Source of the DNA: Candidatus Poribacteria bacterium
GTDB taxonomy: Bacteria > Poribacteria > WGA-4E > WGA-3G
Length of the DNA stretch: 45,031 nt
Direction: 5' to 3'
NCBI GenBank assembly: GCA_012271015.1
Contig: JAAXHD010000188.1
Coordinates: 1-45,031 of the forward strand
Shown: piece after piece, positions 16,196 through 31,767 of the stretch
How positions within the stretch are numbered: the stretch's first letter is position 1
How the letters are laid out: each line of letters begins with the position of its first letter
Translations under genes and position numbers: made by a program
The notes under the pieces: generated by a model
Databases searched by the model: none
Seen by the model: the letters and a program-made list of their open reading frames with translations, nothing else
What the model was told of the DNA's origin: nothing

Positions 16196-16888
16196 ATGAA
16201 ATTTGAATATCTCTTGTTTAATCTCATTGTGATTGTTGGACCGATAGTATCGCAATTCAACCAGCAAATTAGGCATATATCACATTGGCGATTGAAGTTG
16301 CTCACGACGATGTTCGTCATGATTCCGTATATTATATGGGACGTTCTTGTCACTGGTTCACATTGGTGGTTCAACGAGACGTATACGCTTGACTTTCGAT
16401 TGCTCGGTTTGCCGATTGGAGAATGGTTCTTTTTCATCACTGCCCCTTATGGATGTCTGTTGGTATGGGAAACATTGTCGGATGCGAAACTATCAACACG
16501 ATTGAGACCTCTTCGGCATGTCGGAACAGTTTTATACGTAGCACTGCCGATCGGTGTATGGGTTTTCAGCACGGGCAAACAGTACACAGGGTTAGTTCTG
16601 GTTTGTGTTGGGCTTGTTGGACTGACAGACACGTTGTTACGGACCGAGTTGCTTATGCAACCGAAGATCTATATCTATATTGGAATTGTTTTTGGTTTAA
16701 TTCTGATATTCAACGGTTATCTCACGGCGCGACCTGTGGTTTTATATGGTGAGGCGTATCGGATAGGTTACCGAATTTTGACAATTCCCATTGAGGATTT
16801 CGGATACGGATTTACATTGATGCTCTTTAATGCAATGCTTTACGAAAAAGTTTTTAATTTTACCTTACGGAGAAACAACGGGCGTTAG
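16196..16888 (+). CDS. crtYcd: Lycopene cyclase, fused CrtYc-CrtYd type
   Basis: A 230-residue membrane protein with about seven hydrophobic helices, the size of the fused CrtYcd lycopene cyclases of Bacteroidetes and archaea. Each half carries the domain signature: PYIIWD and NETYTLDFRLLGLPIGEWFF in the first, IPIEDFGYGF in the second. These correspond to the conserved P-x-E-E/D motifs of the cyclase domain; the first reads PIGE where PIEE is common. The reaction closes one or both psi ends of lycopene into beta rings; CruF and CrtD downstream imply a monocyclic gamma-carotene product. Its stop codon lies inside the first unit of an 84 bp tandem duplication. Confidence 0.85.
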   Translation: MKFEYLLFNLIVIVGPIVSQFNQQIRHISHWRLKLLTTMFVMIPYIIWDVLVTGSHWWFNETYTLDFRLLGLPIGEWFFFITAPYGCLLVWETLSDAKLSTRLRPLRHVGTVLYVALPIGVWVFSTGKQYTGLVLVCVGLVGLTDTLLRTELLMQPKIYIYIGIVFGLILIFNGYLTARPVVLYGEAYRIGYRILTIPIEDFGYGFTLMLFNAMLYEKVFNFTLRRNNGR

Positions 16889-17017
16889 GACTGTTGCGTG
16901 CGTTTCTCAAATCCGCCTGCGCCGATGTTGCAGGTTTTTAATTTTACCTTGCGGAGAAACAACGGACGTTTGGACTTTGATATGCGTTTCCCAAATCCGC
17001 CTGCGCCGATGTTGCAG
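16850..17017 (+). repeat. 84 bp tandem duplication over the crtYcd 3' end
   Basis: Units at 16850-16933 and 16934-17017 are about 90% identical, starting GTTTTTAATTTTACCTT and ending GCGCCGATGTTGCAG. The period is a multiple of three. The first unit holds the TAG of crtYcd (GGGCGTTAGG); in the second this reads GGACGTTTGG, so the frame runs on toward crtD without a stop. Confidence 0.88.
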
Positions 17018-17063
17018 GCTGCTGTCTTGGGTAAACTAAAGCGCGTAGCCCGTAATGTAATGA

Positions 17064-17106
17064 AGGGCGGTTTTACGTCGAGGAGCGTTATTTACTTAAC
17101 CGCCCT
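17064..17106. repeat. Hairpin upstream of the crtD-like gene
   Basis: AGGGCGGTT at 17064-17072 pairs with AACCGCCCT at 17098-17106 around a 25-base loop. There is no T run after it, so it is not a clear terminator; it may be a dispersed repeat or an mRNA processing hairpin. Confidence 0.5.
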
Positions 17107-17134
17107 GAACGAACCGATAGGAATAATTAAAGAT

Positions 17135-18631
17135 ATGAAAAATAAAACAGTAGCGGTCATTGGTAGCGGACTTGGAGCACTGAGTGGTGCGATTCGCCTT
17201 GCACGCTTAGGATTCTCTGTCCAACTATTTGAGAAGAATTCGCAACTCGGCGGAAAGGTGAACGAGGTGGTTTTGTCGGGTTATCGGTTTGACACCGGTG
17301 CCACACTGTTGACAATGCCATCTGTCATCGATGACCTCTTTAATTTCGCCGGATTCAAGAGGTCGGATTATCTCGATTTCGTGCCAATTGACCCGATATG
17401 TCGATACTTTTTCCCTGACGGTTCTGTGATGGATGCAAGTGCGGATAAGACAAAAATGAAAGCCGCTATTGCCCTGTTATCGCCGAGTGATGTGAAGGCG
17501 TATGAACGGTTCTTGAAGTATGCAGAACGTATTCACAACCTAACAGCCGAAATCTTTATGTTCACACCGATCCATGAATTTGGGAAGCTTATGCGACATC
17601 GGCACTTTCGGACGCTATTCTGGCTTCATCAAATTGATCCGTTTCGGACGGTACACCAAAGTGTGTCACGTTTTTTCTCTGACTCGCGGCTCATTCAACT
17701 CTTTGACCGCTACGCGACTTACAACGGCTCCGATCCATTTCAAGCCCCAGCTACCCTTAACATAATTCCGTATATTGAATACGGATTAGGAGGGTACTAT
17801 ATCAAAGGCGGAATATACCGTTTGATCGATGCTTTGAAAGCGGTGGCATGTGAGTTAGGTGTTCAGATTCATACATCGGCGAAAGTCGAAAAAATCTGTC
17901 ATGATGACAAACGGGTGAGTGGGGTGCAAGTTAATGGCGAGAAAGTTGAGGCGAATTATGTACTCTGTGGTGCGGATGCAGTCGTAGCACATGACGAATT
18001 GATTGATGGACATCAGACTCGCAAAAAAAGGCTAAATCGCTTGGAACCGTCGTTGTCTGGAATGGTATTCCTGTGGGGCGTTAGGGCGAAACAGCCAGCG
18101 TTAGCACACCATAACATTATCTTCTCCAACGACTATAATGCAGAATTCAAGCAGCTTTTCAAACATCGAAAAATACCGGATGAACCGACTATCTATATTG
18201 CCATAACAAGTAAGACTGATACGGCACATGCCCCAGTTGATAGCGAGAATTGGTTCGTGTTGTTGAATATGCCGTACTTGGTTCCCGGACAGATGTGGGA
18301 GCAAGAAAAAACTCGGATGCGGCAGGTTGTGCTGGATAGATTAAAGCAGCTGGGTTTCGACATCGCAGATCGGATTGAGGTGGAACAGATTTACACACCA
18401 GAGGACTTCTCTGAACTTTATGCCAGTAACCAAGGGAGCATCTACGGTGTATCGTCGAATAGCAAAGCCACAGCATTCAAGCGTCTACCGAATCGAAGCC
18501 GTCTCCTTGACGGGCTTTACTTCGCAGGTGGCTCAGTGCATCCGGGGGGCGGAATTCCGTTGGTAATATTGTCTGGGAAAATGGCGTCGACATTAATCAC
18601 TGAAAATCACGACAGGAGCAAGGACGTATGA
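17135..18631 (+). CDS. crtD: CrtD-like carotenoid 3,4-desaturase
   Basis: A 498-residue FAD-dependent desaturase of the CrtI/CrtD/CrtN family. The dinucleotide fold is at the N-terminus (VAVIGSGLGALSGAIRLA, then LFEKNSQLGGKV). FDTGATLLTMPSV and DPICRYFFPDGS are closer to 1-hydroxycarotenoid 3,4-desaturases than to phytoene desaturase. The C-terminal FAD motif is YFAGGSVHPGGGIPLVILSG. It would introduce the 3',4' double bond into the hydrated psi end made by CruF. The ATG at 17135 is the start because homology begins there, although the frame stays open 237 bases further upstream through the duplicated repeat. It overlaps crtI by ATGA. Exact specificity versus other CrtI paralogues is inferred. 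Confidence 0.8.
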   Translation: MKNKTVAVIGSGLGALSGAIRLARLGFSVQLFEKNSQLGGKVNEVVLSGYRFDTGATLLTMPSVIDDLFNFAGFKRSDYLDFVPIDPICRYFFPDGSVMDASADKTKMKAAIALLSPSDVKAYERFLKYAERIHNLTAEIFMFTPIHEFGKLMRHRHFRTLFWLHQIDPFRTVHQSVSRFFSDSRLIQLFDRYATYNGSDPFQAPATLNIIPYIEYGLGGYYIKGGIYRLIDALKAVACELGVQIHTSAKVEKICHDDKRVSGVQVNGEKVEANYVLCGADAVVAHDELIDGHQTRKKRLNRLEPSLSGMVFLWGVRAKQPALAHHNIIFSNDYNAEFKQLFKHRKIPDEPTIYIAITSKTDTAHAPVDSENWFVLLNMPYLVPGQMWEQEKTRMRQVVLDRLKQLGFDIADRIEVEQIYTPEDFSELYASNQGSIYGVSSNSKATAFKRLPNRSRLLDGLYFAGGSVHPGGGIPLVILSGKMASTLITENHDRSKDV

Positions 18632-20121
18632 AGCGGAAGATTGTCGTCATCGGCTCAGGATTCGGCGGACTCGCAGCAGCGATCCGACTCCAAGCCAGAG
18701 GCATGCAAGTCACGCTTCTGGAGAAGAATGCGAAAGTTGGTGGTCATGCTTATCAACTGGTTAAGGAGGGCTATACCTTCGACATGGGACCGTCGATTAT
18801 CACCGCGCCTGACTTGATTCAACGCGTGTTTGAATGTGCTGGGGTAGGGATGGAAGATTACCTTGACTTGGTGAAACTCGACCCATTTTATCGTATCTAC
18901 TTCCATGATGGGACATTGATCGATTATACGGACGATGGCGAACAGATGAAACAGCAAATGATACAGTTCAGCACAGCAGACGCTGATAACTGCGAGCATT
19001 TCATGGCGCATACCCGTCAACTTTACGATGCTGTTATCACAGACGGGTTAGGCGCGACCGCATTTGATTTGCCGACGATGCTCGGTTTTCTGCCGCGTGC
19101 CCTGCGACTTCAGGCATTGATGCCCGCCTACGATTTTGTTAAGAGGTATTTTGAGGATCCGCGTCATCGCTTCACCTTCTCATTTCATCCGCTGTTTATT
19201 GGTGGCAACCCTTTTCGGGCACCCGCGGTCTACTCGATGATCCCTTATCTTGAAAAAACTGGAGGGATCTGGTTCTGTAAAGGTGGTATGTACAAATTTG
19301 TTCAGGCATTAGAGAACGTCTTCAAAAGACTCGGTGGCACCGTTGAGACCGACACAGAAGTTGAAGAAATCGTTGTTAAAAATCGAAAAGCAGAGGGAAT
19401 TTTAGCGAATGGTCAATTTTATGAAGCAGACGCGGTTATTTCGAATGCCGATCTGTTCCACACCTATGGTGAACTTATTAAGTCCGAACATCGTAGGAAA
19501 TGGTCTGACAAGAAACTCCGAAAGATCCAATATTCGATGAGTGCCTTCCTGCTCTATCTCGGTGTCCGTAAGAAATATCCCCAACTGAAGCACCACACAC
19601 TCATTCTTTCCGAGCGGTATAAAGGGTTGATAGATGACATCTTTGATAATAAGGTGCTTCCAAACGATTTTTCAATGTATCTCCACATCCCGTCTCAAAC
19701 CGACCCGTCAATGGCACCGGAAGGCTGCGAGAGTATGTATGTCCTGATCCCAGTGCCGAATCTGGAGAGTGGGATCAACTGGGAAAAGACGAAGGTGGCA
19801 TATACGGACAAAGTGCTAACGTTCTTGGAAAATGATTTTGGACTGACGGACCTAAAGTGTTCAATTGAAGTGCTTGAAACGTTTACTCCGTCAGATTTCA
19901 GGCGGGAACGGAACAACCATCTGGGTAGTGCATGGGGAGTTGAGCCAAAACTAACACAAACAGCGTATTTTCGACCGCATAACCGAAGTGAAGATATACA
20001 GAAACTCTACTTTGTCGGCGCAAGCACACATCCCGGAGCAGGCGTACCGGGTGTTCTGCTGACAGCAGAGACGACTACGAAACTTATCGTTAAAGACTTG
20101 ATCCAGGAGGGTTTATCATGA
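18628..20121 (+). CDS. crtI: Phytoene desaturase (CrtI)
   Basis: A 497-residue FAD enzyme converting phytoene to lycopene by four desaturations. It has the N-terminal Rossmann motif (VVIGSGFGGLAAAIRL, LLEKNAKVGGHA), FDMGPSIITAPDL, and the CrtI-specific block around residues 185-225 (FHPLFIGGNPFRAPAVYSMI, GGIWFCKGGMYK). The C-terminus is YFVGASTHPGAGVPGVLL, the bacterial phytoene dehydrogenase signature. It overlaps the genes on both sides by ATGA, so translation is coupled. Supplies lycopene to the CrtYcd cyclase. Confidence 0.93.
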   Translation: MKRKIVVIGSGFGGLAAAIRLQARGMQVTLLEKNAKVGGHAYQLVKEGYTFDMGPSIITAPDLIQRVFECAGVGMEDYLDLVKLDPFYRIYFHDGTLIDYTDDGEQMKQQMIQFSTADADNCEHFMAHTRQLYDAVITDGLGATAFDLPTMLGFLPRALRLQALMPAYDFVKRYFEDPRHRFTFSFHPLFIGGNPFRAPAVYSMIPYLEKTGGIWFCKGGMYKFVQALENVFKRLGGTVETDTEVEEIVVKNRKAEGILANGQFYEADAVISNADLFHTYGELIKSEHRRKWSDKKLRKIQYSMSAFLLYLGVRKKYPQLKHHTLILSERYKGLIDDIFDNKVLPNDFSMYLHIPSQTDPSMAPEGCESMYVLIPVPNLESGINWEKTKVAYTDKVLTFLENDFGLTDLKCSIEVLETFTPSDFRRERNNHLGSAWGVEPKLTQTAYFRPHNRSEDIQKLYFVGASTHPGAGVPGVLLTAETTTKLIVKDLIQEGLS

Positions 20122-21044
20122 AGAAAATGTGGAAAGTAGAAGAAAATCGGGTTGCCTTTGAATATGCTCGTAGGATAACCGCCTACTATTCAAAAAGTTT
20201 TTACTTCTCAACACGGATGCTGCCCAAAGAGCGACGTTGGGCGACATACGCCCTATACGGTTTCTGTCGACACTGCGACAATTTGATTGATACACCGCGT
20301 CAACGGACTGAAATAGAAATCGTTAGAGAGATACAACTCTTGACAGAAGAATTACAGGTTGCTTACAATACAGGTGAGTCTCAACATCCAATTATTCGTG
20401 CGTTCATTCTCGTTGCCAAGGCGTATGGTATCCCTATTGAATATCCATTCGATTTGCTCAAGGGTGTTGCCATGGATGTCCAGCAGACGCGGTATAAAAC
20501 ATTCGATGAACTCTCTCTTTTCTGTTATCGGGTTGCGGCTGTTGTTGGACTGATGATGACTCACGTCCTCGGCTATAAGGACGAACGTGCCTTTGATTAC
20601 GCCCAACAACTCGGCATTGCCATGCAACTCACCAATATCCTGCGGGACATCAAGGAGGATAAGGACATGGGACGTATCTATCTACCACAGAAGGATTTGG
20701 TGAGGTTCGGCGTAGCGGAGCAAGACATCTTAAAAAAAATAACACCCCAATTGAAAGCCCTGATGAAATTTCAAATTGAACGAGCAGATCACTATTATGC
20801 TGAAGCCATGCCTGGTATCTCTTTACTCGAAACGGAATCGCAGTATGCGATTTATTCGGCGGCTAAAATTTACCGCGGTATCTTAAGAAAGATCGAAGAT
20901 CAGGACTACAACCCATTCTTAAGTCGAGTCTTTGTACCGTCGAGTCAGAAAATCGGGATTCTATTACACGAGGGACTTCGGGCAAAATTTCTATCGGCAC
21001 AGGAGAAACTATTTCCTGTACACTCAGGAATAATCAATAGATGA
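20118..21044 (+). CDS. crtB: Phytoene synthase (CrtB)
   Basis: A 308-residue trans-isoprenyl diphosphate synthase fold enzyme that joins two GGPP molecules head to head to make phytoene. Both aspartate-rich motifs are present: DNLID near residue 55 in FCRHCDNLIDTP and the second in LTNILRDIKEDKDMGRIYLP. The flanking YYSKSFYFSTRMLP and RRWATYALYGF blocks are typical. It overlaps crtI and the acyltransferase gene by ATGA. No GGPP synthase (crtE) is in the window, so that must be encoded elsewhere. Confidence 0.95.
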   Translation: MKKMWKVEENRVAFEYARRITAYYSKSFYFSTRMLPKERRWATYALYGFCRHCDNLIDTPRQRTEIEIVREIQLLTEELQVAYNTGESQHPIIRAFILVAKAYGIPIEYPFDLLKGVAMDVQQTRYKTFDELSLFCYRVAAVVGLMMTHVLGYKDERAFDYAQQLGIAMQLTNILRDIKEDKDMGRIYLPQKDLVRFGVAEQDILKKITPQLKALMKFQIERADHYYAEAMPGISLLETESQYAIYSAAKIYRGILRKIEDQDYNPFLSRVFVPSSQKIGILLHEGLRAKFLSAQEKLFPVHSGIINR

Positions 21045-21700
21045 TTCGTGCACAGCACCGCCTTTGGGCGGACATCATCTTTCAACCGTATCTGACTTGG
21101 TTGTTCAAGCGGAATTTTCACGAGATTCAGTTGTTAGGGATATTACCGAAAATACCTGACGATCTACCGGTGCTACTCCTACCAAACCACAGTACTTGGT
21201 GGGACGGGTTCTTCGTTTATCTGCTTAACAAAAAGATCTTTCATCGGACTGCCTATTTAATGATGTTAGAAAAGCAACTATCGAAATATAAATTCTTTAC
21301 GAAAATAGGTGCTTATTCAATTGAACCGGAGAATAGACGCAGTATTATTGAATCCCTTGAATACACCGTAGAATTACTGAATCAAGAGATGCCGCTCGTC
21401 TCCATTTTCCCACAAGGGCAACTGTTGCCGTGGGATACGCGACCCCTCGGATACAAACGAGGTGTCGAATGGATTTTACGGAAATATCGGAAATCCGTCA
21501 CTGTGCTGCCCTTGGCAATTCGCACCGAGTTTCTCGGTGAAAAGCGTCCACGTGTATCCTTTCTGTTGGGCACTGTCCACTCGCTTGATGCGGGCACATT
21601 TCAAGGGATGGATTGGCTCGAACAGACTGAAACTGCATTATTAGACGATCTCACTTTGCGGATTCTTCGCCAAGAAAAGGGACAAAATCTGTTGGATTGA
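21041..21700 (+). CDS. PlsC-type acyltransferase, probably acylating the carotenoid glycoside
   Basis: A 219-residue membrane-associated acyltransferase of the LPLAT/PlsC superfamily. The catalytic H(x4)D motif is NHSTWWD at about residues 51-57. The acceptor-site motif appears as FPQGQL near residue 126 instead of the common FPEGT. In carotenoid clusters such enzymes esterify the sugar of glycosyl carotenoids with a fatty acid. Position directly before a family 2 glycosyltransferase and the four-base overlap with crtB support this role. A general phospholipid role cannot be excluded but is less likely in this operon. Confidence 0.82.
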   Translation: MIRAQHRLWADIIFQPYLTWLFKRNFHEIQLLGILPKIPDDLPVLLLPNHSTWWDGFFVYLLNKKIFHRTAYLMMLEKQLSKYKFFTKIGAYSIEPENRRSIIESLEYTVELLNQEMPLVSIFPQGQLLPWDTRPLGYKRGVEWILRKYRKSVTVLPLAIRTEFLGEKRPRVSFLLGTVHSLDAGTFQGMDWLEQTETALLDDLTLRILRQEKGQNLLD

Positions 21701-21709
21701 AAGGTTGGT

Positions 21710-22840
21710 ATGGTTTCCTTGTTTATCCTGATGCTTATTTCGATAATTCTGTTGACGGTTATTTTAGCAGTCGCGTGGTTTAATACTGTAACTGCGCCGA
21801 TGCTGAAGAAATTCGTTGGTCTCCAGAACTATCCACGCGTCTCGGTGTTGATCCCGGCGCGTAACGAAGAAACTAACATCGGTGCCTGTATCAACGGATT
21901 CCTGTCTCAAAACTACAATAACTTTGAAATTCACGTTCTCAATGACCAATCGACGGATCGCACGGGTACGATTATTGAAAAACTCGGCGAACAGTATCCT
22001 GCAGTTCAGGCGATTCAGGGTAAACCGTTGCCAGCAGGCTGGACTGGAAAAAACTGGGCGTGCCACCAACTGAGCCAACACGCAGATGGAGAAATACTCA
22101 TTTTCACAGATGCGGATAACCGTCCTGCCCCGAACGCGATTGCAAACACTGTTGCTTACATGCAGAAGTTGGAACTCGGCTTGCTCTCGGCGTTTCCAGA
22201 GAAAGTGACTGGCACCTTGGCAGAAAAACTCGTCGTTCCGGTAGTGGACCTGTTCGTTTATGCCGGACTTCCGTTATGGCTTACCTACTTTAGTCGTTTC
22301 CCGTCGCTTGCGGCGGCGAGCGGTCTCTGGATTGCCTTTACTCGCGAGGCATACCAACGGGTTGGTGGGCATCAAGCGGTATCAAATCAGATTGTTGAAG
22401 ACGTTGAACTCAGCCGATTGGCGAAAAAGAGAGGTATCAAAATCTTGACATCGGCGGGAACGTGTGTGGTATCTTGCCGGATGTATCATTCGTTCAGCGA
22501 GGTCTGGAACGGATTTTCCAAAAATCTTTTTGGATTGGTCCGCTACAAAATGATACCGTTTTTTATTTTAATGCTCGGTCTGTTGACAATGTGTGTGCTA
22601 CCCTACATTACTGTCTGGTTTGCGACGCTTAGAGGATTGGCAATCGTTGCTATCGTTATAAACATCGTTATGCGGATGGTGCTGGCACTCAAATATAGGC
22701 ACCCCTTCGTTACAAGCGTAATTTTACATCCATTTGGCGTTTTATTGACTTTGCTGATTGGTGTTAATTCATTCTGGCAGGTCAAACACGGTCGTCTGCA
22801 GTGGAAGGGTCGACAGATTGACCTACAGATGAGTGAGTAA
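21710..22840 (+). CDS. Family 2 glycosyltransferase, probable carotenoid glycosyltransferase
   Basis: A 376-residue inner-membrane GT2 enzyme. An N-terminal membrane helix is followed by the GT-A core: VSVLIPARNEETNIGACI, HVLNDQSTDRTG, LIFTDADNRPAP with the metal-binding DAD, and IVEDVELSRLAKKRG as the acceptor-site motif. Two to three C-terminal membrane helices follow residue 280. Related enzymes include CruC-like and CrtQ-like carotenoid glycosyltransferases. In this operon it would transfer a sugar to the 1' or 2' hydroxyl made by CruF or another oxygenase. It begins nine bases after the acyltransferase stop codon. Confidence 0.83.
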   Translation: MVSLFILMLISIILLTVILAVAWFNTVTAPMLKKFVGLQNYPRVSVLIPARNEETNIGACINGFLSQNYNNFEIHVLNDQSTDRTGTIIEKLGEQYPAVQAIQGKPLPAGWTGKNWACHQLSQHADGEILIFTDADNRPAPNAIANTVAYMQKLELGLLSAFPEKVTGTLAEKLVVPVVDLFVYAGLPLWLTYFSRFPSLAAASGLWIAFTREAYQRVGGHQAVSNQIVEDVELSRLAKKRGIKILTSAGTCVVSCRMYHSFSEVWNGFSKNLFGLVRYKMIPFFILMLGLLTMCVLPYITVWFATLRGLAIVAIVINIVMRMVLALKYRHPFVTSVILHPFGVLLTLLIGVNSFWQVKHGRLQWKGRQIDLQMSE

Positions 22841-23515
22841 GTGAATATATTCGTGAAAAAAGTAAAAATAGGGATGCTTTATCTACTTTTAGGCGCGGGT
22901 GGCTTGTGGCATGTGCTTGGCGTGTTCCAAGAAGTTATGCAAGTTCTCGCTTCGCCAATCATGATTGGTTTGGGCGTATGGCTATTTTGGGAATGCTGGC
23001 GGATATATCCACGGCATGAACAATCGAAGTTTGCCATCACAAGTATAGGGATCGTTGTCGTCAGTTTTGGGATTGAATGGCTCGGTGTTCGGACGGGACA
23101 GATTTTCGGTTCATACCTGTATGGACAGACACTGCAGCCGTCGATTGATGGCATCCCAATTAGTATTGGGTCTGCTTGGTTTGTGATGCTTATCGCCTCG
23201 ACTGCTGTTGCTCAGAAGGTCGCACCGAAATCCTTAGCAAACGATTTCCGTTTCAAAATGGCGTTTTTAGTGGCTTTGTTAATGGTCTGCTTCGACCTGC
23301 TTATGGAACCGGCAGCAGTGAAATTGGGTTATTGGACATGGATGAACGACCATATCCCTTTACAGAACTATTTAGTATGGCTCGGATTGAGTTTCATCTT
23401 TGCGGGGATCGGTTTTCAAGTCGGCGTGTTTCGTCAACAATTGCCTCGAATCGCCTTTCACTGCTATTTTGCGCAACTCCTATATTTTGGATTGGTTAGT
23501 CTAAGCAACTTATGA
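22841..23515 (+). CDS. cruF: Carotenoid 1',2'-hydratase (CruF, DUF422)
   Basis: A 224-residue polytopic membrane protein of the DUF422/CruF family, which hydrates the terminal psi-end double bond of gamma-carotene-like or bisanhydrobacterioruberin substrates. Visible family features: FGIEWLGVRTGQIFGSYLYG around residues 66-90 with conserved Glu, and DLLMEPAAVKLGYWTW around 148-163. It starts with GTG immediately after the glycosyltransferase stop codon, so translation is probably coupled. The product gives the tertiary hydroxyl that the glycosyltransferase can use. It overlaps crtW by ATGA. Confidence 0.9.
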   Translation: MNIFVKKVKIGMLYLLLGAGGLWHVLGVFQEVMQVLASPIMIGLGVWLFWECWRIYPRHEQSKFAITSIGIVVVSFGIEWLGVRTGQIFGSYLYGQTLQPSIDGIPISIGSAWFVMLIASTAVAQKVAPKSLANDFRFKMAFLVALLMVCFDLLMEPAAVKLGYWTWMNDHIPLQNYLVWLGLSFIFAGIGFQVGVFRQQLPRIAFHCYFAQLLYFGLVSLSNL

Positions 23516-24228
23516 AATCAAAAAATAAAGGCTTATTCATTGCATTAGGGATTATCGGTTTATGGGGAGTGAGTCTCTCAATACTCCTCACACTTGATGT
23601 GAGCCGCGTTTACCTTGTGGTGATGCCTTTGGGCATGCTCTGTCAGATGTTCCTATACACGGGCCTATTCATCACAGCGCACGACGCGATGCACGGTTCA
23701 GTTTGTCCTACGCATCCGCGTATCAACAATGTAATTGGGGCAATCACTTTCAGACTATACGCCCTATTTTCATACCGTAAATTATTAAAAAAACACTGGG
23801 AGCATCACCGAACACCCGCGAGCGATACGGATCCAGATTTTCACGATGGACACCATACGGGCTTCTTGGCGTGGTATTTCCATTTCATGAAAGAATACTT
23901 GAGTTGGAAGCAGATAGTCGGTATGGCGATTGTATTTCAAATCATGGAGTATATTTTGGCAATTTCCACTGTCAATCTTGTACTGTTTTGGGTTTCTCCA
24001 GTATTGCTTAGCACGTTGCAACTGTTCTATTTCGGGACCTATCTACCACATCGAATACCAGAAAGTGGGTATGATAACCCTCACCGCGCGCAGAGCAATG
24101 CCTATTCAACGCTCTGGTCGTTTATCACTTGTTACCACTTCGGGTATCATTGGGAACACCACGAGTATCCATACATCGCATGGTGGCGTTTGCCAGTCAT
24201 ACGGAGAATGAGAGCGCGCCTTCAATGA
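23512..24228 (+). CDS. crtW: Beta-carotene ketolase (CrtW)
   Basis: A 238-residue membrane di-iron enzyme of the fatty-acid-hydroxylase-like ketolase family. The histidine clusters are complete: HDAMHGS, HWEHHRTPASDTDPDFHDG, FGTYLPHR and CYHFGYHWEHHEYP. This set matches CrtW, which installs a 4-keto group on beta rings, rather than CrtZ or CrtR hydroxylases. On a monocyclic backbone it gives a 4-keto-gamma-carotene derivative. Overlaps with cruF and the deacetylase gene are four bases each. Confidence 0.92.
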   Translation: MKSKNKGLFIALGIIGLWGVSLSILLTLDVSRVYLVVMPLGMLCQMFLYTGLFITAHDAMHGSVCPTHPRINNVIGAITFRLYALFSYRKLLKKHWEHHRTPASDTDPDFHDGHHTGFLAWYFHFMKEYLSWKQIVGMAIVFQIMEYILAISTVNLVLFWVSPVLLSTLQLFYFGTYLPHRIPESGYDNPHRAQSNAYSTLWSFITCYHFGYHWEHHEYPYIAWWRLPVIRRMRARLQ

Positions 24229-24935
24229 ACCCTATCATCATAGTTGCTGGAACATTTGCCGCGGTGACACTGCTATGGTTGTTCTTTAGACCACCTTTCG
24301 GAAAGAATATTGTTCGCCTGAACACGGACCAGCGGATTGTCGCCCTCACCTATGACGATGGACCGAATCCACCTTATACCGATCGATTACTTGATGTCCT
24401 TGCGAAACACGATGTTAAAGCCACTTTCTTCCTGATCGGAAATCGGACCGAAAAGCATCCCGAAACAGTAAATCGAATTATTGTCGAGGAACACCAAATC
24501 GGCAATCATTCTTATAGCCACCCACTCCTTGGTTTCCTGCCGCCAGCCTATGTCCAACGGGAAATTGAACGCACAGACACCCTCCTACAGAGATGTGACC
24601 CCGACGGGGTTTTCAAGGAAGGTGAAATCGAGTTTCGCGCGCCGGTGCTGACAAGGTTTTTGCCAGTGGCATGGGTGCTCGCGAAAGGGAATCGCGCCCA
24701 CATTAGCTGCAACGTGTGGAGTTGGGATTGGACGACCCAAAAACCTGATAAGATCACTAAAACGGTATTGAAGAAGACAAAGCCGGGTTCGATTATTGTT
24801 CTACACGATGGGAAAGCAGAGAATAAGGATGCGAATCGTTCGGGAACAGTCGAAGCAACAGATCGCATTATTGCAGCACTTAAACAGGATGGGTACGGGT
24901 TTGTACGATTATCGGATGTCAACAATCAGTTATGA
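24225..24935 (+). CDS. Polysaccharide deacetylase (CE4, NodB domain), membrane anchored
   Basis: A 236-residue protein starting at the ATG at 24225, which overlaps the crtW stop (ATGA). The N-terminus is a membrane anchor (IIIVAGTFAAVTLLWLFF). The NodB domain is well kept: TYDDGPN with catalytic Asp and metal Asp, GNHSYSHP with both metal histidines, FRAPVL, WDWTT, and IIVLHDG. CE4 enzymes remove N- or O-acetyl groups from sugars. Its translational coupling to the carotenoid genes suggests a role on the carotenoid-linked sugar or in cell-wall changes made with pigmentation; both are inference. It overlaps the convergent selenoprotein-like gene by six bases. Confidence 0.88.
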   Translation: MNPIIIVAGTFAAVTLLWLFFRPPFGKNIVRLNTDQRIVALTYDDGPNPPYTDRLLDVLAKHDVKATFFLIGNRTEKHPETVNRIIVEEHQIGNHSYSHPLLGFLPPAYVQREIERTDTLLQRCDPDGVFKEGEIEFRAPVLTRFLPVAWVLAKGNRAHISCNVWSWDWTTQKPDKITKTVLKKTKPGSIIVLHDGKAENKDANRSGTVEATDRIIAALKQDGYGFVRLSDVNNQL

Positions 24936-26510
24936 GTCTGCCGGTCCCACAGAGATTTGAGCGACAAAAGCGTTTACAGAGGCTTCACCTTCGTTAGAAT
25001 GTCCAATAGCACCTAACTTAAAGAACTGACCTCGATCGAAACGATGCGTAATTTGTCCTGTCTCGCCCGATTCACTCCATGCCCAACCAAGTAGGTCTTC
25101 TTGAGGTATTCCTTCTGTTGTGGGGAGTTCCGTATCGCCATTGACGAGAATAAAAGTGCCATCACTGTTCCCTCTGCCCACTTCAATATCAATAGTGAGC
25201 GTGCCACCGTTCTCAAAGGCTGTGGCATCAATCATAGCGATGGTGTAATCGTGACGACCACATGTTGGTGTCCGAAAAGCGTCCAACACCGACTGCGAAG
25301 AATTCTCACTCGTGAGGATAAGGTTGCCCAGTCCGGGTTGTTTGCCTTCTAAAGCTTCCTTGAGAAATGCAAGATAATACGCATGCTCCCGAAGTTCCCT
25401 GCGTTTACTGTCTTTTTCAAGGTCATTGACCATTTGCCGCCCCATCAGTTCAAACGCTGACGACATAACCAAGCAATCTACCGGTGAGCGTTTTTTGGAT
25501 CCGGTTTTCCAACCTCTAATAATTGCTTGTGCTAAGGGGTGGGCTGTATCAAAGCTCTTACCCTCGCGTTCGCGTCTTTTGGCAATCGGTTCCCGCAAAC
25601 TCTGGATACGTCCCAATTCACAGTTAGGGACCCATGTATTGATGAAATTTTCGTTCAAAAATTCAATAACTTCGTCTTTTGAGAGGACACCTGCCCTCAA
25701 TCCTTTGCCACTCCCTCAGCAGGATTCATCCAAGAGCGATCCATTTATTGAGATAGCATGGATCGGTTTCTGTTGTGCAGGAGCCGTCTCCAACGCTTCT
25801 TCGAGTGATACCCAGTTAATGTGCTGCGATTTGTAGAAGCAGAGAGCCAATTTATGTGCCACTTTTTCTGTTGTAATGGATACAACGAATTGAGTGTTCC
25901 GCAGAACGTTTTCCATTCCAGCGCGGAGTTCCATTTTCGGGCAGAATCCACAATCCGTAATATGACCCTCCGCGTTAGGATCGGTTTTCCTCCAAGTGTC
26001 AAAATTTATAGTGCCGTTAGGAACGAACATCTGAAAGAAGGCAACTGCTCCTTTAATTCTATCAATAACAAGATGTCCCATAAACTGGGAGGGCGTGAAC
26101 CAACCACCCTTTAGGGCAAATTGCGCGTGGATGCGGAACACGATGTCAGCGAATTCAGCGTCATAGGCGCGAAGGCATGCCCACAGTCCTTGAGATTCGG
26201 TTTTATGGTGATGCAGATCCCAACGCATACCCAGAGATGGATTCGGATGAAATTGCTTCAGCAACTCCAGAGCACCCGCGTGCGCAATCTCCCAAGGTGT
26301 ACCAACAGAAACGGCTTCCTTCGGAAGAAAGTCGCAGAAGATTGAGGTGGGATGCTGTTTTTCTGGTTCAGCGACGCGCAGGTTTGCCAGCGTGTCCCAG
26401 TCTACATGAAAGTTGTATTGTGTGTATTCAATCGGCGCGATGAAGCCTTTGAGGGATACTTCTGCATCACCGTCAAGATTAAGTGCAATTTTGTTGTTGA
26501 AAACTTTCAT
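24930..26510 (-). CDS. Candidate selenoprotein, copy 1: N-terminal domain, thioredoxin-like Cys-Sec motif, beta-sandwich
   Basis: Read as one 526-residue protein with an in-frame TGA at 25716-25718 decoded as selenocysteine (residue 265). Residues 1-230 are a conserved domain I cannot name (FIAPIEY, GLWACLRAYDAEFADIVFRI, WFTPSQFMGHLVIDR), with a CPKMEL motif. From about 235 a thioredoxin-like fold begins: INWVSLEEALETA, KPIHAISI, then DESC-Sec-GSGKGLRAGVL, VIEFLNENFINTWV, and SPVDCLV as the likely cis-Pro strand. A C-terminal beta-sandwich follows (GGTLTIDIEV, RGQFFKLGAIG). Two separate genes is the alternative, but the second half has only a TTG and no ribosome binding site, and the same arrangement recurs in two paralogues. 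The ATG at 26510 has GGGAG upstream. It converges with the CE4 gene. Confidence 0.8.
25683..25718 (-). promoter_or_regulatory. Sec codon and SECIS-like hairpin, copy 1
   Basis: The TGA is at 25716-25718. After a 17-base spacer, GAGG-GCAGGTGT-CCTC (25698 down to 25683) can fold into a short stem with GGU in the loop. Bacterial SECIS elements lie in this range and carry G-U in the apical loop; the loop resembles the GCAGGU of E. coli fdhF. The stem is short, so a folding calculation is needed. Confidence 0.55.
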
Positions 26511-27050
26511 TTTGGTTGTGAACTCCCTTTTCTATAGGAATATTATTTCTATCAGAATGGGTCAATGATTCGCTTATACCCGTTTTTGGATGCACCTTTT
26601 CCAGTTATGTAGTATCCATAAAGTATCGCAAATGCTTCATTGGTTTGGGACTTCTCTGTGTTATTTTTCGCTCTTTTCTGCCAGGACTATCCAGTTTTCG
26701 GTTTTTTTACCCATTCTTATACCAATTCTGATTGATAACTTCTCTTAAAAGCGTCTAATGTTTTTGGTCACGCCCAGTGCGGTTAGGAAACCGCACCTAC
26801 CGGGTCTGAGTGAACGGGGCAGTTAATGCAATATAAACTTTTAGAAATGATATTATAACAAATCGCGACCAGGAGGTCGCTCCTACACGGAGGCATCGGG
26901 AATCGGAGTTCCCTCCTACAGGAGAATTATGGTAGGTTTTAGAATTACTTAAACACTCTAAAAAGGCGAGGTTAGGAAACCTCGCCAGCGGAGATGGGTC
27001 GTTGTTCCTTTAAGAGGTCTATTTATTTTTACGATTCACCATAAATGACC
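26511..27050. other. Repeat-filled intergenic region between selenoprotein-like copies 1 and 2
   Basis: No gene in 540 bases. Four different palindromic units occur: GTGCGGTT with AACCGCAC (26777-26796), GCGACCAGGAGGTCGC (26865-26880), GGAATCGGAGTTCC (26899-26912), and GGCGAGGTT with AACCTCGCC (26965-26986). This separates copy 1 from the otherwise tight IMPDH, copy 3, copy 2 series. Confidence 0.7.
26777..26986. repeat. Cluster of four modular palindromic repeats
   Basis: Each unit has a different 5-9 bp stem and a purine-rich AGGA- or CGGAG-like loop. Three are followed by ACCTAC or TCCTACA; the last by AGCGG. Related units lie at 3752, 15220, 32823 and 41103. Changes in the stems are matched on both arms, so pairing is kept. 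Confidence 0.75.
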
Positions 27051-28595
27051 CTACTTTTCTGCTAACTCTATAGAAATCCTTGCTTGGAAAGCATTGATGC
27101 TTCCTTTCTCGTTAGATGCCCATCCCAGAGCGACCAATTTAAAGATCTGTCCTCGCTCAAAACGATGTGTCATCTGTCCCGTTTCATTGGGACCCAACCA
27201 ACCTATGCCGTGCGATGCCTCAAGAAGGACTCCCGTGGGACGTTTATGAGCCGCATCAAAGGTAAGCTTGTGATCAGCATCCAACAGATGAAATGCTCCA
27301 TACGCCTTTTCATCACCCACTTCAATATCAACAACGAGTGTACCGCCTTTTGCAAACGCTGTGGTATGAATTACAATAACCGTGTAGTCTTGGTGTCCAT
27401 ATTCTGGGGTGCGAAAAACGTCTAATATCCGTCGTGAGGGCTGTTCGGGTGTGAGAACAGTGTTCCCGAATCCAGGGAGTTTTCCGTCTAAGGAATCAGC
27501 GAGAAAGAGGAGGTAATTCACACTCTCCAAAGTCCCATCCTCACGTCGATTGTTGTCAAGATAATCATTAACCGCTACATGCCCTACCGCTTCAAGTTCA
27601 GGAGATATAACCCATGTATCTACTGGACCCCTGCGCCATTTGTGACCAATGATTGTGCGTGCCAAGGGAGGCATACCCTCAAATCCTTGGGAATCACGCA
27701 TGCGTCTAAGCTCGGCATTACGCGTCCATGTATTGATAAAATTTTCGTTCAGGAACTCGATGATTCGATCGTCGGAAAGGACAACTGCCCTCAAGTTTTT
27801 GCCGCTCCCTCAGCATGCCTCATCGGCGAGCGGTCCATCGACTGAAATGGCGTGGATGGGTTTCTGTTGTGCTTGTGATATTTCTGCTGCCTCTTCAAAT
27901 GGCACCCAGTTGATTTGCTGCGACTTATAGAAACGTTGTATCAGTATGCGTTCAGCCTCTTCTGGCGTGATTAATGTTGTGAACTCGGTTTCCTGAGTAC
28001 CATCCCGCATTTCCCCAAGAAGTTCAATTTTCGGACAGACGCCACCACCTGCGCTATAATAGTAGTTAGGTTCGTCTTTCTGTTTTCTCCAATTAACATC
28101 GAACAGTGTCCCATCAGGAACGCGCATCTGGAAAAAGGCTACACTCTTTTTGATGCGATCAATAACCAGATGTCCAGCAAATTGAGAAGGTGTGAACCAA
28201 CCGTCCTCTAATGCCAAGGTCGCATGGATGCGAAAGATAATATCTGCGAATTCATCGTTGTAAGCGCGTAGACATGCCCATAAACCACGGGAATCTCCTG
28301 CGTTAATGTGCATATCCAGATTCGGATTAGGCTGTAGCTGGTTCAGCAAGGTAAACGCGCCTTGGTCGTCAATCTGCCAATAGTCCCCAACGGCGACAGA
28401 TTTGTCTGGAAGGAACGCTCGGAAAACCGAAGTAGCATACGCCTTCTCTGGTTCAGCAACGCGCATATTTGCTAACGCATCCCATTCTTCATGGAAGTTG
28501 GGGTTCATGTGTTCAATCGGTGCGATGAACCCTGTGACGGGCACTTCTGCGTCGCCATCAAGATTAAGTGTAATTGTGTTTGGTAGTGTTTTCAT
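27051..28595 (-). CDS. Candidate selenoprotein, copy 2
   Basis: A 514-residue protein if TGA at 27810-27812 is selenocysteine (residue 262). It has the same three-part layout as its neighbours: N-terminal domain (FIAPIEHM, GLWACLRAYNDEFADIIFRI, WFTPSQFAGHLVIDR, CPKIEL), thioredoxin-like centre (INWVPFEEAAE, KPIHAISV, DEAC-Sec-GSGKNLRAVVL, IIEFLNENFINTW, GPVDTWV) and C-terminal beta-sandwich (GGTLVVDIEV, RGQIFKLVALG). It starts one base after the stop of copy 3 (TAATATG), with GGAAAG upstream, so the two are translationally coupled. Here the residue after the hairpin Ala is Val instead of Gly. It lacks the roughly 30-residue insertion seen in copy 3. Confidence 0.8.
27777..27812 (-). promoter_or_regulatory. 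Sec codon and SECIS-like hairpin, copy 2
   Basis: TGA at 27810-27812, 17-base spacer, then GAGG-GCAGTTGT-CCTT. The outer C-to-T change relative to the other copies leaves a G-U pair, and the loop still contains G-U. The stem is therefore kept although the codons differ. Confidence 0.5.
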
Positions 28596-28596
28596 A

Positions 28597-30264
28597 TTAA
28601 CTTTCCGCTACAGAGATTCTTGCTTGAAAGGCGTTGACATGCTCTTTCTTCTCCATCAGTTCAGAAGAAGCAATTGCGAGCTTAAAAACTTGACCTCGAT
28701 AGAAAGGATACGTAATTTGTGCCGTTCCATTGGGCGGAACATCCGTAGCACTGGCGATAGACGTGTCGTAACGCTGCCCGCGTTCTGTTGGGAATTCGAT
28801 ATCGCTATCGTACAAATAAAATGAACCTGCGAGTTCGGCACTTCCGACACGTATATCAATAGTGAGTATCCCACCTTTTTCAAAGGCAGTGGCATCAGTT
28901 GTTACAATAGTGGACTCCTGATAACCAACCTCCAGCGTTCGGATTACATCTAATACTTCCAACATAGGCTGCATAGGGTTGAGTACCACTTCCAAACCTG
29001 TTAAGAAAGGTCTGAAAGGGCTTTCTTGCTCCGGGATATTCTCCTCCTCGCCTAATAGATATGCGAAAGAGTTGTCGGCACTAAACCCGGGATATTTTCC
29101 TTCTAAGGCCTCAATAAGAAAGAGACGGTAATTTTCTGCCCGCGTCCTACTGCCATCCCAGTCGTGACCGCTGTAGAGGTATTTATTTAAAGCGAGTTTA
29201 CCTTTCAATTCAAAGTCAGGCGATATAACAAAACAGTCCACAGGTGAGCGTTCGTGCCAACCGTTCTTGATTGCTTGGGCTAACGGATGGGTAGTGTCAA
29301 ACGACTTAGATTCGTGTGCGTATCTTTTGGCAAGATATTCTCGCACACTCGGCTTCCTGCCTAATTCAAAATTAGACACCCATGTGTTGATAAAATTTTC
29401 ATTCAAGAATTGAATGACGCGTTCATTGGCGAGGACACCTGCCCTCAAGTCTTTACCGCTCCCTCAGCATGCCTCATCGGTAAGCGGTCCATCGAGTGAA
29501 ATGACATGAACGGGCTTCTGTTGCGCTGGTGCCATTTCCAATGCTTCTTCCAGCGATACCCAGTTAATTCGTTGTGATTCGTAGAATCGCAGTATTAGCG
29601 AACGCTCTGCTTCTTCCTGTGTGATTGCTTCTGTGAATTCGGTGTCTTGTAGAACATCTTGTGTTCCGGCACAGAGTTCCATTTGCGAGCAGTAACCTCC
29701 ATCCGTAATCCATCTCGGAGCGTCCCAACCTTCTAATGTCGTTTCCCAATGAACATCAAAGTTGAGTGTGCTTGTAGGGACGTGCATCTGAAAAAACACT
29801 ACAGTCTCTTGGTTACGATCAATAACAAGATGTCCAGCGAATTGTGAGGGTGTAAACCAACCATCAGTTAAGGCAAATTCTGCATGAATACGAAACACGA
29901 TGTGTTCCAATTGATTGTTGTAAGCGCGCAGACATGCCCAGAGACCTTTAGCCTCTTCTATGCCATACATTTCCACGCGCATCTCCAGTGAGGGATTCGG
30001 ATGAAGTTGTTTCAGCAATTGCTGGACACTGGTTTGTTTTATCTGCCAGCACTCACCCACCGAAACTGCTTCGGATGGAAGAAAATCACGAAAAACAGCG
30101 GTGGAATACTGATTTTCTGATTCCGCAGCACGCAGATTCGCCAATGCATCCCATCTCTTATGAAAGTTGCCTGCGGTATGCTCAATCGGTGCGATGAAGG
30201 CTTTGATGGAGATTTTTGCATCATCGTCAAGGTTAATCATTATTTTGTTGTCGAAAGTTTTCAT
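28597..30264 (-). CDS. Candidate selenoprotein, copy 3
   Basis: The longest copy, 555 residues with TGA at 29464-29466 as selenocysteine (residue 267). Domains: N-terminal (FIAPIEHT, GLWACLRAYNNQLEHIVFRI, WFTPSQFAGHLVIDR, CSQMEL), thioredoxin-like (INWVSLEEALEMA, KPVHVISL, DEAC-Sec-GSGKDLRAGVL, VIQFLNENFINTWV, SPVDCFV) and beta-sandwich (GGILTIDIRV, RGQVFKLAIAS). It has an insertion of about 30 residues near 410-440 absent from copy 2. The ATG at 30264 follows AGGATGG and lies three bases after the IMP dehydrogenase stop, so the genes probably share an mRNA. Predicted cytosolic: no signal peptide is visible. A thiol or selenol redox role is inferred from the fold and motif. Confidence 0.8.
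29431..29466 (-). promoter_or_regulatory. Sec codon and SECIS-like hairpin, copy 3
   Basis: TGA at 29464-29466, 17-base spacer, then GAGG-GCAGGTGT-CCTC at 29446 down to 29431, identical in the hairpin to copy 1 although the neighbouring codons differ. Confidence 0.55.
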
Positions 30265-30267
30265 TTT

Positions 30268-31767
30268 TTAACCATCCTGCGTCGTTCTTGGAATGATATC
30301 GTGGACACCGCCTTCACGAATACTTGCTGAAGAGACTAACACGAATCTCGCTTTTTGACGGAATTCCGGTAGGGATATCGCCCCACAATTGCATAAAAGC
30401 GATCGGATTTTTGCGAGGGTCGTTTTCAAACTATCGTTCATCTTTCCGGCATAAGGAACATAAGCGTCAGCCCCTTCCTCGAACAACAATTCTGGACCGC
30501 CGCCCTCGTGGTAACGTTGCCAATTGGCGGCTCGCTTTGTTCCTTCTCCCCAATATTCCTTCACTGTATTCATACCCAATTTTCTTATTTTACTTGGACT
30601 TTCATCAAATCTTGCGAAATATCTGCCCATCATTACGAAATCCGCACCCATAGCAAGTGCCAAACCGATATGATAATCTTGGAATATACCCCCATCCGAG
30701 CAAATTGGCACGTAAACACCGGTTTCCTTCAAATACAGGTCCCTTTGCCGAGCAACTTCAATGACAGCAGTCGCTTGCCCACGACCGATTCCTTTCTGTT
30801 CCCTCGTTATACAAATAGCCCCTCCACCGATACCTACTTTTATAAAATCAGCACCGGCTTCTACCAAATACATAAACGCATCTCCGTGAACTACATTCCC
30901 GCCGCCCACTTTCACAGTATCATTGTACTTATCTTTAATGAATCGAATGGTGTCCGACTGCCATTCTGTATACCCTTCAGAGGAATCAACACAAATAATA
31001 TCGACACCTGCATCTACTAAGACGGGTACTCTTTCTTTATAATCTCTTGTATTGATGCCAGCACCGACGACGAGCCTTTTCTGAGAATCTACGGATTCAA
31101 GGGGATTTTTCTTATGGTCGTCGTAATCTTTTCTGAAAACCAAGTGTAGCAGCCTACGACTTTCGTCAACAATCGGCAAACAATTTATCTTGTGTTCCCA
31201 AATGAGGTCGTTGGCATCTTCAATCGCAATTCCCTTTTGACCCACAATTAGCTGGGGAAAGGGAGTCATCAATTTGCTGACTTTCGTACTTAAATCTACT
31301 CGACTCAATCTATAATCCTTATCCGTTATCAGCCCGAGTAACTCTCCTGAAGACGAACCATCTTCGGTTATGGGAATCGTCGAATGCTCTGTTTCTTGGG
31401 TTAACCTTACTACGTCTTCTATGGTGCTATTACACTTTAAATTTGAGTCGCTGACAACAAAACCTGCTTTGTGGTTTTTAACTGCCCGGACCATTGCTGC
31501 TTGCTCTTCAATATCTTGGGATCCATAAATAAAGGATATCCCGCCCTGTCTCGCCAGTGCGATCGCCAAGTTGTGATCCGAAACGGCTTGCATGATTGCA
31601 GAAGCAAACGGAATATTCACTTCCATAGGCGGCTGTTGTCCCTTCTTAAACTTCACGAGAGGGGTTCTCAGGATGACGTTTTCAGGGATACACTCCTTCG
31701 TCGTTAAGTTAGGTAAAAGCAAGTATTCGCTGAAAGTCCGGCTTGCTTCAGGAAAAAAGTGAGCCAT
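30268..31767 (-). CDS. guaB: IMP dehydrogenase
   Basis: A 499-residue enzyme of the IMPDH/GMP reductase family, converting IMP to XMP with NAD. Residues about 100-220 hold two CBS domains ([28 protein letters not shown]). The barrel contains [19 protein letters not shown], and the catalytic loop [13 protein letters not shown] with Cys at about residue 319; the usual Ser next to it is Ala here. ICSDGGI and [16 protein letters not shown] [16 protein letters not shown] follow. GMP reductase is unlikely because CBS domains and this length fit IMPDH. An AGGAGG lies eight bases before the ATG. The selenoprotein-like genes follow after only three bases. Confidence 0.87.

Follow-up and report, generated by a model that had tools for sequence, protein, structure and literature searches.

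How are three neighbouring genes to be read, if each of them is interrupted by TGA at the same place in the same motif? This question is raised by contig JAAXHD010000188.1 of assembly GCA_012271015.1 from a Candidatus Poribacteria bacterium, which was analysed over 45,031 nt (this whole stretch is called the window). On its minus strand lie three pairs of open reading frames, each with Cys-TGA-Gly-Ser-Gly-Lys and a single in-frame TGA, as claimed in the first-pass annotation of this DNA, which had also proposed that the TGA encodes selenocysteine (Sec) in a multi-copy, thioredoxin-like redox protein. The conserved TGA, the selenocysteine machinery of the phylum and a hairpin behind the TGA support this proposal. 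Judged by sequence comparison, it is highly probable that each pair is one gene in which TGA is translated to Sec, the product being a homologue of selenoprotein N and a predicted thiol/selenol redox enzyme. Joined across the TGA, the pairs form single frames with the lengths anticipated:

28597..30264, minus strand: selenoprotein N-like copy 1 (P0001), 555 residues with the TGA read through
29464..29466, minus strand: in-frame TGA of copy 1, predicted Sec codon, residue 267
27051..28595, minus strand: selenoprotein N-like copy 2 (P0002), 514 residues with the TGA read through
27810..27812, minus strand: in-frame TGA of copy 2, predicted Sec codon, residue 262
24930..26510, minus strand: selenoprotein N-like copy 3 (P0003), 526 residues with the TGA read through
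25716..25718, minus strand: in-frame TGA of copy 3, predicted Sec codon, residue 265

The motifs described for the halves were likewise confirmed: the first halves end in DE(A/S)C and the second halves continue with GSGK, LRA(G/V)VL and FLNENFINTW. The family is larger than the triplication that had been assumed: this genome has ten copies, and a relative carries as many as eight in one tandem array.

The TGA as a probable selenocysteine codon

The behaviour of the site across relatives makes it very likely that the in-frame TGA encodes selenocysteine. The 244 distinct sites in the fetched loci were scanned with a Cys required before the site and with TGA, TAA and TAG treated as separate letters; TGA was found at 239 of them, TAA and TAG at none, Gly at four, for which the loci had been fetched deliberately, and Ser at one, so that the TGA does not behave as a stop. 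Cys was seen at this position solely in the protein P0125. A pattern of the motif allowing any codon matched in 64 of 84 Poribacteria genomes, with 357 matches in sum and none for the reversed-pattern control, which together with the ten copies of the own genome, each with one TGA, bears out that the arrangement is not due to chance. All 150 of the matches listed read TGA, and the other 207 lie outside this list and must include five Gly sites. The residue following the predicted Sec is Ala instead of Gly in 8 of 96 copies.

Alternatively, the TGA could be a true stop, with two proteins made from each pair and the second produced by translational coupling at a TTG, with GGGAG as ribosome binding site. 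GGGAG directly follows the TGA and an in-frame TTG stands six codons on in all three window copies, so the earlier statement that the second halves have no ribosome binding site is not entirely correct; moreover, public gene callers split the genes, with 78 of 169 fetched proteins terminating at the Cys that precedes the TGA position and 13 more doing so with slightly different tails. However, the TTG is CTG in 38 of 96 copies and is thus not a conserved start, which makes a translation start inside the second half unlikely. A free stop would drift to TAA or TAG, yet all 239 stop-bearing sites are TGA, and a split would sever the thioredoxin-like domain between the Cys and its helix. Where a relative has Gly, Ser, Trp, Thr or Cys in place of the TGA, its protein is one continuous chain. 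A true stop is therefore very unlikely.

A few irregular copies could be taken to indicate decaying pseudogenes, or TGAs that are sequencing errors: one gene copy in genome G036 has Ser at the site, pattern-matching Gly copies occur in 5 of the 84 genomes, and one copy in G016, which may be broken, carries a TAG elsewhere in the frame besides its TGA. Both halves are under purifying selection, however, as the median ratio of nonsynonymous to synonymous substitution rates (dN/dS) is 0.172 upstream and 0.172 downstream of the TGA (115 pairs of copies, 114 usable upstream; copies 75-97% identical, 15 codons after the TGA excluded). With the motif recurring in that many assemblies, and with TGA in every listed match, decay or error has a probability close to negligible.

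A probable recoding hairpin and the selenocysteine machinery

A hairpin resembling a selenocysteine insertion sequence (SECIS), in the form GAGGGC-AGGU-GUCCUC, begins 17 nt past the TGA:

29431..29446, minus strand: SECIS-type hairpin of copy 1, GAGGGC-AGGU-GUCCUC, -8.6 kcal/mol, 7 pairs including one extra outer pair
27777..27792, minus strand: SECIS-type hairpin of copy 2, GAGGGC-AGUU-GUCCUU, -6.1 kcal/mol
25683..25698, minus strand: SECIS-type hairpin of copy 3, GAGGGC-AGGU-GUCCUC, -7.7 kcal/mol

As the folding of single copies is unremarkable, the constraint on this hairpin becomes visible only across copies and in comparison with synonymous-codon shuffles. Among the codons at +6 to +11, counted from the TGA, several hardly vary in their third base (GCA in 87 of 96, CTC in 91 of 96), and most codons upstream of the TGA are variable there. 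The consensus fold of 88 distinct 45-nt windows reaches -5.05 kcal/mol; 200 redraws with synonymous codons gave a mean of 0.0 and none as low. One pair of the hairpin covaries on both sides, from G-C to A-U, in 9 windows. The excerpted rules for bacterial SECIS elements comprise a loop of 3-9 nt, G in the first two positions and a distance of 16-37 nt from the UGA (PMC13188914). If these rules are applied in simplified form, with perfect stems only, a fitting hairpin at -4 kcal/mol or better is present in 94 of 94 distinct windows (average of the synonymous-codon shuffles, 22%), 85 of them having the loop at a distance of 23 nt from the TGA, and a hairpin at -7.5 kcal/mol or better is present in 86 of 94 (shuffles, 4.5%), copy 2 of our contig being weaker. 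The search for a SECIS element that the first-pass annotation had suggested thus succeeds at the level of the family.

The machinery for decoding such a codon occurs in the genus to which the contig belongs and is widespread in the phylum. SelB passes its family cut-off in 75 of the 84 Poribacteria genomes and tRNA-Sec in 73 of 84, in many beside SelB, and SelA and SelB are named for sponge symbionts in an excerpt of PMC5649159. As tRNA-Sec is present in 57 of the 64 genomes that bear the family and also in 16 of the 20 that are free of it, this family is not the sole reason for which the machinery is kept. The own draft genome (4.94 Mb, 438 contigs, 84% complete) contains a complete selD and selA in two stretches, each cut by a contig end, so that of the genes selA to selD, which had been proposed as a check, these two were recovered in the genome itself, and selB and the tRNA gene selC in the phylum but not in this draft. 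The selD gene (L033:5337-6380, G000:C133) has its own in-frame TGA in a CAGU motif and is likely itself a selenoprotein gene.

The hairpin could also serve a readthrough of any kind, and Trp occupies the site in two relatives (P0017, P0018), as would suit a UGA read without selenium, as Trp or another residue, owing to a recoding signal or an altered genetic code. Against this, a polysaccharide-deacetylase-like gene in the window terminates at TGA; translated beyond it, the protein would gain a tail of no more than 27 residues, in overlap with copy 3 on the opposite strand. The wide presence of the Sec machinery, the agreement of the hairpin with the bacterial SECIS rules and the Sec which an excerpt of PMC12839072 gives for the animal homologue at this position also argue for selenium, and we regard readthrough without it as highly unlikely.

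Homology to animal selenoprotein N and the predicted reaction

Standard family models do not reveal what the proteins are. Pfam and NCBIfam scans of P0001-P0003 and a Pfam scan of 43 relatives gave nothing over the cut-off, NCBIfam selenoprotein models had no match to the three proteins at E <= 1, and PF03190 reached 12.3 bits with P0001, for a cut-off of 27, and did not match P0002 and P0003. A region search with a divergent family member returned the wombat EF-hand protein P0170 (E 2.1e-30) and an annelid EF-hand protein (2.1e-9), and many relatives of P0170, across vertebrates, are named selenoprotein N (among 120 listed of 315). P0170 matches P0001 at E 2e-30 (30% over 318 columns), P0003 at 3e-28 and the protein of locus L194 at 3e-37, and a coelacanth record named Selenoprotein N matches P0001 at 1e-34. 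Out of 121 animal records, P0001, P0002 and P0003 match 120, 120 and 121 at 1e-5 or better. The alignments span ~240-370 columns, mostly ahead of the motif, and take in both the N-terminal domain and the redox site, where the Cys-Sec positions correspond. On the strength of these alignments, the window proteins are bacterial homologues of animal selenoprotein N in its N-terminal and thioredoxin-like domains, and the impression of the first-pass annotation that no described selenoprotein has this architecture has to be corrected for these two domains.

Among the 78 animal records in which a script located the motif region, 37 read QSC-SGRTL, two residues short directly after the Cys, and some further ones are garbled at this point; both are expected if a TGA is left unread. 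Because many animal records skip or garble the Sec codon, the Sec of the animal proteins rests on PMC12839072, of which an excerpt gives SCUG as the context of the Sec in human selenoprotein N and names p.Sec462Arg and p.Arg466Gln among the changes found in disease. Four positions after Sec, both sides have a basic residue: K or R in C-U-G-S-G-[K/R] of the bacterial family, Arg466 in the human protein. For copy 3 the domains are laid out as follows:

25911..26510, minus strand: N-terminal domain, residues 1-200, by sequence homology to the pre-thioredoxin domain of animal selenoprotein N
25335..25835, minus strand: thioredoxin-like domain, residues 226-392, by predicted structure, holding Cys264-Sec265
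24933..25331, minus strand: C-terminal beta-sandwich, residues 394-526, by predicted structure

The beta-sandwich had been foreseen and is borne out by the model, and sequence searches for a solved structure among relatives of the bacterial family found none. The top fold matches of the thioredoxin-like domain in the model of copy 3 are DsbH and anterior gradient proteins, so that one might think of a selenoprotein of this type whose likeness to selenoprotein N is convergence around Cys-Sec-Gly. But the animal matches extend over hundreds of columns that mostly precede the motif, and the sigma-factor fusion P0129, whose sequence stops at the site, nevertheless matches all 121 animal records, which renders convergence extremely unlikely. 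In comparison with DsbH/Thioredox_DsbH (DUF255) and anterior gradient/ERp19 proteins, the window proteins have CUGSG instead of CxxC and additional N- and C-terminal domains.

Animal selenoprotein N (SELENON, SEPN1) contains an EF-hand and a single transmembrane anchor and is located in the endoplasmic reticulum. The window proteins share with it the N-terminal and thioredoxin-like domains, the aligned Cys-Sec and the basic residue four positions after Sec, but they are without EF-hand and transmembrane anchor, they have the additional C-terminal beta-sandwich, and the Poribacteria family is multi-copy, arranged in tandem and equipped with a bacterial SECIS-type hairpin within the coding region. 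Sec followed by Gly-Ser also occurs in the UGSC-containing selenoprotein family (NF041046, in the excerpted Table 1 of PMC13188914), in which, however, the Cys comes after the Sec, whereas it precedes it in the window proteins.

As we envisage the reaction, SelB and tRNA-Sec would read the TGA via the hairpin, and Cys264 and Sec265 of copy 3, predicted to lie where the first helix of a DsbH/anterior-gradient-like thioredoxin fold begins, may form and break a selenenylsulfide. Mammalian thioredoxin reductase is a different protein with its Cys-Sec pair elsewhere. Its pair is likewise vicinal (GCUG; excerpt of PMC12839072), and as in that enzyme the neighbouring positions of Cys and Sec make a selenenylsulfide chemically plausible. 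The target of the selenol would be a disulfide, or with lower probability a peroxide, in a partner that the N-terminal domain holds; the C-terminal beta-sandwich might add protein or ligand contacts. Since neither a signal peptide nor a membrane anchor is evident in the window copies when their sequences are read, these would be cytoplasmic enzymes; some paralogues, by contrast, have the look of exported or membrane-tethered proteins. The tandem copies may be partner-specific versions of one reductase.

Several observations weigh against a Sec-containing selenoprotein N homologue. Neither selB nor tRNA-Sec (selC) was found over the cut-off in the own draft genome with its 84% completeness; the strongest match of the selB search reads as elongation factor Tu, and the 8 of 10 weaker tRNA-Sec matches that were checked are all other tRNAs. 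We infer that both genes were lost in assembly gaps. The hairpins of copies 2 and 3 are not the minimum-energy fold of the 52-nt stretch, and by z-score none of the 52-nt stretches of copies 1-3 folds better than its shuffles. Moreover, full-length homologues among the matches listed in the first homologue search (120 of 863) have Gly, Trp or Thr at the site, and the 18 stop-free fetched homologues with a residue there comprise 14 with Gly, two with Trp, one with Thr and one with Cys; the sole Cys case found, P0125, is a sigma-factor fusion, and one of the 14 Gly homologues has Ser in place of the preceding Cys. These proteins and the Ser copy of G036 mean that some copies live without a selenol, and the TAG in the G016 copy counts on the same side. 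Finally, the match to animal selenoprotein N does not extend to the C-terminal domain, Pfam detected no EF-hand either in the window proteins or in 43 relatives, and no hydrophobic N-terminal stretch, membrane anchor or signal peptide was seen by eye in P0001-P0003, which begin at the conserved domain. Since EF-hand and membrane anchor are absent, the proteins are filed as selenoprotein N-like and not as SELENON.

Variants, arrays and origin of the family

Sec is most likely the ancestral state at the site, as suggested by what is left of the hairpin in Gly copies and by the tree, in which both Gly proteins nest within a Sec-bearing clade. Of the five Gly loci read, three have GGA and a good relic hairpin, two of these being the same in sequence across the stretch, and two have GGC and a decayed hairpin, which fits a Sec ancestor, though they are too few to prove it; the Ser copy of G036 retains its hairpin. 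The Gly-for-Sec copies (L217-L221; P0004-P0014, P0016, P0019) are thus apparent losses of Sec to a residue other than Cys.

Divergent branches combine the selenoprotein N-like domain with other modules. In 23 of 51 matches (P0125, P0127-P0148) an extracytoplasmic function (ECF) sigma factor is followed by a hydrophobic, membrane-helix-like stretch and the selenoprotein N-like domain, and such fusions are intact with one TGA in four genomes (L222-L225 in G076, G063, G064 and G073), in close relatives of P0125. It is possible that they are membrane-tethered, redox-sensing sigma factors. Their sigma-factor part belongs to a family strongly amplified in Poribacteria, with many matches per genome and varied frame lengths (84 genomes). 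Signal-like starts in the divergent members L114 and L186 are a further feature, and some of the divergent forms hint at redox sensing outside the cytoplasm. At L008:1312-3003 (G000:C130) what we read as a selenoprotein N-like domain with CUGTGK is followed by a presumed TlpA-like thioredoxin domain. In P0172 (775 aa), caspase-like PF00656 occurs together with a selenoprotein N-like N-terminal part that lacks the redox site.

With P0001 as query, the ten copies of the own genome lie on seven contigs, beside five matches to C-terminal pieces, and 64 of 84 genomes of the phylum match at E <= 1e-10. In the named genome collection, every one of the 72 distinct loci bears the title Poribacteria (best 80 of 123 matches), from which an absence of the family in other phyla does not follow. 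Copy 1 has a counterpart in another genome that is 88% identical and also contains one TGA. The largest array, in a relative (locus L096), has eight copies on the same strand within ~11 kb, and several arrays of relatives adjoin the same genes as the window, which we take from their sequences to be IMP dehydrogenase-like, leuCD-like and polysaccharide-deacetylase-like. In the window the gene preceding copy 1 is:

30268..31767, minus strand: presumably IMP dehydrogenase-like, named from reading the sequence alone, ending 3 bases before the start of copy 1

The ATG of copy 2 is one base past the stop of copy 1, and with gaps of 3 bases and 1 base the IMP dehydrogenase-like gene and copies 1 and 2 look like one operon. 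Copy 3 follows 540 bases beyond copy 2, and between them, on the minus strand at 26780-26990, there are short imperfect palindromes, e.g., GGCGAGGTTTCCTAACCTCGCC, possibly dispersed repeats. Adjoining the array on the plus strand (16196-24228) is a run of carotenoid-type genes, which we assume to be desaturases and phytoene synthase-like, glycosyltransferase-like and ketolase-like genes. A second array in the same draft genome (L034, G000:C146), with two copies and an IMP dehydrogenase-like gene 92% identical, represents either a segmental duplication or a second strain in the assembly.

Poribacteria are known as sponge symbionts, and loss of human selenoprotein N leads to congenital myopathy. 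A sponge selenoprotein N is listed as Aq.SelN in an excerpt of PMC3473315, so that both partners of sponge symbioses carry the family. Tentatively, and with more doubt than confidence, animal selenoprotein N might be of bacterial origin, having passed from a Poribacteria-like bacterium to an early animal that would have kept Sec, replaced the in-frame SECIS by one in the 3' untranslated region and gained the EF-hand. In a tree of 50 rows the animals form one long branch between two bacterial clades; as it is unrooted, contains only vertebrates but for one animal and was flagged by the tool for the meeting of long branches, it leaves the direction of a transfer undecided.

A bacterial selenoprotein N was not reported in the literature searched, nor was any work joining selenoproteins with Poribacteria found there, preprints and most subscription journals being outside this scope. 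The excerpted Table 1 of the 2026 review PMC13188914 contains 119 prokaryotic selenoprotein families or subfamilies, none of them selenoprotein N-like, the available text of PMC7474598 contains neither 'bacteri' nor 'homolog', and PMC4807772, in the part at hand, is not about a bacterial homologue of selenoprotein N.

In our judgement selenoprotein N is poorly understood in humans, and it now gains a likely bacterial counterpart. This family, soluble-looking, free of EF-hands and naturally varied at the site, where Sec, Gly, Ser, Trp, Thr and Cys occur, should be tractable for studies of reaction, partner and structure. The bacterial selenoproteome gains a group that is absent from the excerpted review table, with up to eight copies per tandem array, and a testable question of gene transfer between animals and bacteria living as sponge symbionts is raised. 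If the bacterial origin were true, a large bacterial family would show the ancestral reaction, including membrane-tethered sigma factors in which the selenoprotein is likely the redox sensor.

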